A stretch of DNA of 64,000 nt, taken from contig JAEVLN010000029.1 of assembly GCA_018350325.1 (NCBI GenBank), forward strand, positions 124,001 through 188,000, in the 5' to 3' direction. Of the stretch, positions 18,108-18,129 are shown in pieces; positions within the stretch are counted from its first letter, which is position 1, and each line of letters starts with the position of its first letter. The DNA comes from Globodera rostochiensis (Eukaryota; Nematoda; Chromadorea; Rhabditida; Heteroderidae). A program made the translations under genes and the position numbers. The notes under the pieces were generated by a model. It saw only the letters and a program-made list of their open reading frames with translations. It was not told the origin of the DNA and searched no databases.

Positions 18108-18129
18108 CTCAAACTTGGGTAATTAAACC
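18108..18129 (-). promoter_or_regulatory. SL1 spliced-leader sequence with donor, in 5' LTR
   Basis: Read on the minus strand from 18129, the 22 bases equal the canonical nematode SL1 leader at every position (GGTTTAATTA at the start, AAGTTTGAG at the end). They are followed at once by GTACC, so the GAG|GT exon-donor boundary of an SL RNA and the TACC/GGTA pairing of its first stem are kept. The orientation is the element's sense. SL1 is normally supplied in trans by SL RNA and joined to mRNA 5' ends. Here it is encoded in cis. Its role (RNA 5' end, cis-donor, or mimic) is not shown by sequence alone. Confidence 0.93.

Follow-up and report, generated by a model that had tools for sequence, protein, structure and literature searches.

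The window analyzed here, a 64,000-nucleotide stretch of the Globodera rostochiensis genome, carries on its minus strand a BEL/Pao element with an env region and an exact copy of the spliced leader SL1 in each of its long terminal repeats (LTRs) (Table 1). The two LTRs agree at 1,085 of 1,090 aligned bases, with one further 1-nt indel, and the first base of SL1 is base 844 of the 1,091-nt 5' LTR. The long open frame encodes DUF1759, DUF1758, RVT_1, Peptidase_A17, Integrase_H2C2, DUF5641, and a Phlebovirus G2-like Env. DUF1759, DUF1758, Peptidase_A17, Integrase_H2C2, and DUF5641 lie above their cut-offs, RVT_1 scores 26.9 bits, under its cut-off of 29.6, and the Phlebovirus_G2 model is matched over positions 1 to 324 of 324 with 218 bits. 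Some homologues of the reverse transcriptase (RT) piece bear the name Pao. Since Pao-type domains and a phlebovirus-G2-like Env occur in one frame, we regard this as a young env-bearing BEL/Pao element (Belpaoviridae), with paired TG...CA LTRs, a short target site duplication, a Pao-type gag-protease-RT-integrase region, and a phlebovirus-like Env. BEL/Pao elements of the Tas/Cer7 kind likewise combine gag-pol with a phlebovirus-like glycoprotein, and, to our knowledge, SL1 in the LTR is no part of their descriptions.

Table 1. Features of the BEL/Pao element, in positions of the window
Feature	Position	Strand	Remark
5' LTR	17882..18972	-	pairwise LTR alignment; TGTCGC...GCGACA ends; target site duplication outside
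3' LTR	5909..6998	-	pairwise LTR alignment
Target site duplication TTGTC, left	5904..5908	.	directly outside LTR
Target site duplication TTGTC, right	18973..18977	.	directly outside LTR
SL1 22-mer, exact, 5' LTR	18108..18129	-	putative start of the translated RNA and of the R used in strand transfer
SL1 22-mer, exact, 3' LTR	6135..6156	-	putative landing site of SL1-capped strong-stop cDNA
Open frame, 2,891 codons	6923..15598	-	first ATG at 15592; same sense as SL1
Poly(A) signal AATAAA, 5' LTR	18088..18093	-	from the 15th base after SL1
Poly(A) signal AATAAA, 3' LTR	6115..6120	-	after SL1; expected to be used
TATA box TATAAAAG	18516..18523	-	394 nt upstream of SL1; Inr-like TCAC at -370; coordinates converted from offsets
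Putative outron, predicted start to SL1	18130..18499	-	2 ATGs (18443, 18158; 4.0 expected)
ATG-free leader, SL1 to gag start codon	15593..18107	-	27.9 ± 4.0 ATGs expected

Three side observations concern the same window. By eye, TGGTGCAACGCGACC starts at the fourth base past the 5' LTR, the position of a candidate primer binding site. A 280-codon leader frame without methionine runs from 16763 to 17605 (minus strand) and shares 34.6% identity over 208 amino acids with the leader of an element on contig C21, a likeness at the protein level despite the missing ATG. A tandem repeat of about 108 nt extends over about 5 kb from 34577, with at least 47 copies in register.

A first-pass annotation of this DNA had reported an exact SL1 in element sense in both LTRs and had called a chance match negligible. 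Both statements hold, with 22 of 22 bases matching at either site, and a chance match is rejected, as no match arose in 100 shuffles of the sequence. Across the genome searched (92.6 Mb in 80 contigs), we find 122 exact copies of SL1, and none of the reversed control. By our own count, 54 of these are SL RNA-like (61 copies of SL1 followed by GTAC, minus seven window-family LTRs) and 68 are not. Among the SL RNA-like copies, 48 of 54 continue into the intron GTACTTGGTGTAT and the remaining six begin with GTACTTGAAAATG; in the stretch of C12 examined, 5S genes alternate with SL1 genes. All 48 exact matches to the intron GTACTTGGTGTAT carry an exact SL1, so that leader variants are of no use as a tracer; at the two one-mismatch sites, the exon is short of one A. 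The six GTACTTGAAAATG-type copies, at C8:1054280-1070518 and C23:5102081-5118545, consist of SL RNA upstream sequence and SL1 followed by GTACTTGAAAATG in place of the SL RNA body, and are either SL RNA pseudogenes or a repeat with an SL RNA promoter. From the way the sites are ordered, C8 seems to represent a second haplotype of the C23 region.

The 68 copies outside SL RNA-like sequence are LTRs or look like LTRs. Flanks were read for 60 of them (59 that were clustered, plus L087), while seven are placed by position only and one enters by count only. The 59 copies with flanks fall into nine whole-LTR clusters, and their upstream and downstream halves into 13 and 14 clusters, respectively; the numbers vary with the threshold, and for several single copies the LTR assignment is by analogy only. 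The 59 read copies in nine LTR clusters indicate that SL1 is a real and recurrent part of LTRs, in element sense. LTR pairs were aligned for the window element and for elements on C3 (694/694 identical), C9 (743/743, two gaps), C10 (675/675, one gap), C31 (560/560), and C14 (1,100/1,103, two gaps), so that not all 60 copies are proven LTRs. The near-identity of these pairs indicates that several families were mobile recently. For L021/L022 and L046, the compared stretches far exceed an LTR because the units are in tandem. Non-autonomous elements form identical or nearly identical tandem units at C10:1266570-1276204 and C26:502775-508405.

With respect to element type, a same-strand SL1 lies within 10 kb of 9 of the 43 BEL Peptidase_A17 sites by position, or 10 of 43 with C67:1376663 included (the 43 sites being 49 Peptidase_A17 matches with six second pieces merged). 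The corresponding figure for gypsy sites is 1 of 68 by position (71 matches less one second piece and two sub-cut-off rows), a doubtful case because the two SL1 LTRs around that site differ. SL1 is kept in both L020 and L046: L020 is a 4.8-kb U0 element with a 1,093-amino-acid frame that we read by eye as Gag plus protease, its gag piece matching DUF1759 proteins, and L046 is a 5.6-kb U2 unit with no frame over 151 amino acids. The gag piece of a second family shows 72% identity to Heterodera trifolii over 93% of the query, 86% to H. schachtii over 37%, and 90% to Globodera pallida over 16%. No exact SL1 match was found in viral_contigs.

We compared the six coding elements for which the examined sequence covers both SL1 and the gag start (the window element, L009, L018, L020, L021, and L047), and in all six, which represent five LTR types, the apparent gag start is the first ATG after SL1. 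In the window element, 2,537 nt precede this ATG, with 27.9 ± 4.0 ATGs expected there (minimum in 400 shuffles, 16); in the other five, 612 to 918 nt precede it, with 5.3 to 11.3 expected. The C14 copy L028 has no ATG in the 2,022 nt examined on its 5' LTR side, and the first ATG of the ORF-less L046 is at +210. The nearest ATGs before SL1 lie at -29 in the window element, -6 and -12 in L021, -54 in L009, and -88 in L018. In L020 and L047 they are as distant as -291 and -312, the latter outside an LTR in which SL1 lies 291 nt from the start, so these two elements do not fix a 5' end at SL1. From the ATG distribution, SL1 most likely begins the translated RNA of these elements.

In 12 of 14 downstream types, a poly(A) signal begins at base 3 to 23 past SL1 (within 30 nt; 0.38 expected), and none is present within 30 nt after SL1 in L026 and L037. 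A recognizable TATA box occurs in 6 of 21 representatives, 311 to 419 nt upstream of SL1 (-394 in the window element, -416 in L059, -419 in L020, -402 in L021, -414 in L055, and -311 in L009, which has a second match at -185). Matches to TATAA[AGT] were present in 9 of 21, those of L023, L026, and L033 being left out as AT-rich stretches. Five of the six TATA representatives also have an Inr-like motif 24 to 27 nt past the TATA box; 13 of the 21 representatives have no TATA/Inr pair, and three more have only a weak one. Between -50 and -15 before SL1, no TATA-like box was found in any of 14 representatives. The five putative outrons with a placed start contain 12 ATGs against 24.4 expected; given this partial depletion, RNA started upstream may also be translated. 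Neither GTRAG nor GTATGT occurs in the putative outron of the window element. In several families, the U3 has TGTAA motifs or short hairpins a short distance ahead of SL1, as judged by eye; these are possibly upstream polyadenylation elements.

The explanation that we favor, with a little better than even confidence, is that the encoded SL1 forms the 5' end of an R region adapted to trans-splicing in a group of BEL/Pao elements. The sequence supports three of its steps, namely, the promoter position (six representatives), the poly(A) position, and, through the ATG test, an RNA 5' end at SL1. Transcription would start at a promoter 284 to 392 nt upstream of SL1, as placed in the five representatives with both TATA and Inr motifs. 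We infer that the stretch from this start to SL1 acts as an outron and that the host SL RNA is joined by trans-splicing where the encoded SL1 ends, probably with the SL1's own terminal AG as the acceptor. The spliced RNA would then begin with SL1-R', R' starting just before the poly(A) signal, as the ATG-free leader suggests. The poly(A) signal after SL1 in the 3' LTR would end the RNA, leaving SL1-R' at its 3' end as well. With the SL1-capped RNA as template, strong-stop cDNA ending in the host-supplied SL1 could pair with SL1-R' as encoded in the 3' LTR, and strand transfer would thus work even though the 5' SL1 is supplied in trans, and SL1 would be rewritten in each cycle. Since such families share SL1, transfer between them could also exchange U3 against R'-U5 at that point.

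The trans-splicing reading is weakest at the acceptor: the encoded context is TTTGAG, with an inner AAG 6 nt earlier, a poor match that is far from the nematode acceptor consensus UUUUCAG. A broader proposal, which we put forward tentatively and with somewhat less than even confidence, is that these elements may rely on the host for one end of the terminal redundancy. The host SL RNA would provide the 5' copy for strand transfer in each cycle and the LTR would keep the match, which would make SL1 self-exact and allow U3/R-U5 exchange between families. Against the favored explanation, cyst nematodes are reported to use many leaders promiscuously (PMC6362198), yet an LTR carrying a different host leader was not encountered, and the 8-kb RNA of Cer1 (see below) is not trans-spliced (PMC3315495).

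Pol II might instead initiate directly at the encoded SL1, giving an RNA that mimics a trans-spliced mRNA. The ATG-free leader does start after SL1, SL1 and the nearby poly(A) signal together resemble an ordinary short R, and most representatives (13/21) have no recognizable upstream TATA/Inr pair. This start in cis is nevertheless unlikely given the lack of a TATA-like box at -50 to -15 in 14 of 14 representatives, the TATA boxes 311 to 419 nt upstream in six, and the Inr-like motif in five of these; by eye, we also noticed no likeness to SL RNA gene sequence upstream of SL1. The first-pass annotation had suggested that the RNA starts with SL1 in cis, and on this evidence its first half survives, the translated RNA being most likely SL1-first, but a start in cis is the less likely way of getting there.

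Elements without SL1 bear on the same choice. One is a BEL family on C12, C14, and C16 whose copies are 98 to 99% identical to each other, and the other is the C21 element, which is related to the window element through the leader frame; no exact SL1 was found in the examined stretches of either. By eye, the distance from TATA to AATAAA is 60 nt in the C12/C14/C16 family and 188 nt in the C21 element, compared with 430 nt in the window element (the LTR ends of both controls were likewise read by eye, not from pairs). Both controls are free of ATGs from the predicted start, with 0 against 7.1 expected in the C12/C14/C16 family and 0 against 27.3 in C21, where the count runs to the end of the examined stretch. 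The ATG-free zone therefore reaches back to the promoter in the controls, whereas in the window element, L009, and L021 it stops at SL1 or close to it, well short of the promoter. It is chiefly because of this contrast, drawn from few families, that we favor a trans-spliced outron over a start at SL1.

Comparisons between LTR families reveal mosaics with a boundary at SL1. The window element and L059 have 0.80 to 0.82 identity over the 200 nt before SL1 and drop to the level of shuffled sequence after it, and L037 and L050 behave in the same way (0.72 to 0.78 before SL1). L059 and L024 show the reverse pattern, alike after SL1 and unlike before, and the upstream side of L024 may be another repeat, with similar sequence seen by eye in L082. 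The L055/L021 mosaic is weak (right side 0.66 versus a null maximum of 0.64). Such mosaics could stem from template switching at the shared SL1 or from independent turnover of R'-U5.

A different division of labor would make the SL1-capped RNA an mRNA only, with a longer RNA started upstream as the genome and R composed of outron, SL1, and R'; the encoded SL1 would then be an old capture that now acts as an acceptor or as an element of the polyadenylation region. R would be complete at both ends, and there is a precedent in Cer1 of Caenorhabditis elegans, for which spliced mRNA with and without SL1 and an 8-kb RNA that is not trans-spliced are described (PMC3315495). We consider this quite unlikely, as it gives no reason for an exact SL1 in a unit without long ORFs (L046) or for LTR pairs whose likeness stops at SL1.

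Of the 561 stretches of 22 nt compared across ten U0-type LTRs, SL1 shows the highest conservation (0.991; 0.72 and 0.60 for the flanks), with nine of the ten LTRs having been chosen by exact SL1; without L055, the stretch at -345 ties with it. SL1 ranks low in U2 (472 of 551) and U7 (186 of 531), as we read it because tail duplications shift the alignment. A fairer measure comes from a whole-LTR search, in which 40 of 183 candidates were scored and which gave 17 long matches spanning SL1 (84 to 100% identity), 16 with an exact SL1 and one with 21 of 22 bases. In the U4 family, six of eight spanning copies are exact, two have five and three changes, and a ninth has a deletion. Three more sites have one mismatch (L095 to L097).

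The SL1 copies might also be passive relics, leaders that were added to expressed elements and then integrated, as has been proposed for Brugia malayi (PMC7181701). Decayed SL1 is indeed present in some copies, and an origin from trans-spliced RNA is likely whichever reading holds. As a full account it is very unlikely: SL1 is the most conserved stretch of U0-type LTRs (with the choice of nine of ten rows by exact SL1 in mind), it is internal to both LTRs and preceded by a full U3, and a poly(A) signal adjoins it in 12 of 14 downstream types.

Several altered copies deserve mention in their own right. L080 (C21:8994-9800) and L098 (C1:983200-983620) are otherwise close to their families and have a deletion spanning SL1, which might be the product of a failed strand transfer. 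Tail duplications at the 3' end of SL1 are found in L045 (6 nt), L031 (6 nt), L075 (7 nt), and L064 (2 nt), while at the 5' end no duplication was seen by eye in the 59 copies chosen by exact SL1. The extra TTTGAG after SL1 in L031 and L045 is as expected from splicing at the inner AAG, and splicing at an AG would not produce the duplications of L075 and L064. All four could be products of slippage. At C45:3945756-3945775, an LTR has GGGTTATTAACCCAAGTGAG in place of SL1, with a perfect palindrome inside and nearly unchanged flanks. We rejected this 20-mer as another host leader, for it has no other copy in the genome within two mismatches, and it was the only odd 20-mer encountered.

The first-pass annotation had also noted a GT after SL1 and had taken it as a sign of SL RNA gene sequence. 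The GT is there in the window element and directly follows SL1 in 7 of 7 full-length window-family LTRs, and it also occurs in a second LTR family. The next base is, however, not a G in 52 of the 68 non-SL-RNA copies, the families showing C, A, T, or G, so that GT is no general part of the feature and was rejected as such. The 16 copies with a G include the seven window-family LTRs, and the 15 of them that were read all have GT. L059, whose U3 is homologous to that of the window element, has CCCGTCC after SL1. The Rfam SL1 model finds no match in the window LTR at E values up to 1, neither body nor fold of a nematode SL1 RNA gene being detected, although it finds the genome's 5S-linked SL1 genes at 51 to 53 bits, below the cut-off of 75; a captured SL RNA gene was rejected on this basis. 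A captured SL RNA gene or an SL1 used as a cis 5' splice donor, for which the GT in all seven window-family LTRs and the identity of their GTAC with the first four bases of the SL RNA gene might speak, is thus refuted for most families by the missing Rfam match, the 52 of 68 copies without a G, and the CCCGTCC of the homologous L059, and a family-specific donor in the window family is conceivable only at a very low probability.

The presence of SL1 beside LTR retroelements has precedents, and the statement of the first-pass annotation that no such LTR element was described needs correcting, for SL1 has been reported next to PAO LTR elements of Brugia malayi (PMC7181701). In that species, 120 "integral" SL1 copies outside SL RNA genes are reported, 60 of them within 1 kb of PAO, and occasionally two same-strand SL1 copies flank one PAO element; the inference given is that expressed elements acquired leaders, which at some time became integrated (PMC7181701). 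The window shows the same association, with two same-strand SL1 copies at a PAO element, outside an SL RNA gene. The association itself is therefore not new. The portion of the B. malayi text available to us does not place SL1 inside an LTR or at a poly(A) signal, and contains no ATG-free leaders, upstream promoters, SL1-less controls, or mosaics (PMC7181701). The DinoSL relicts of dinoflagellates are similar in that a leader was copied into DNA via reverse-transcribed trans-spliced mRNA, but they are host retrogenes in which, as far as described in the sections available, the relict lies outside any strand-transfer repeat (PMC6050394). Cer1, a Ty3/gypsy element of C. elegans, is likewise an LTR element whose mRNA gains SL1 by trans-splicing; its description, in the part available, mentions no LTR-encoded SL1, and trans-splicing at that site does not occur in its 8-kb RNA (PMC3315495). 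Among the open-licence literature, we found no paper describing SL1 as the start of R in LTRs. Within the literature searched, what is new is the placement of SL1 at the putative start of R, together with the evidence from ATGs and promoters, the controls lacking SL1, and the mosaics.

For genome annotation, these copies are a caution that genomic SL1 22-mers are not always SL RNA genes. If the favored explanation is right, SL trans-splicing would be built into the replication of a retroelement, beyond its role in mRNA maturation, and these elements would have a new way of defining R. It would give a reason for the long, ATG-containing stretch between promoter and poly(A) signal in these BEL/Pao families, and the encoded SL1 would mark RNA 5' ends in a way that can be tested by ordinary 5'-end sequencing.
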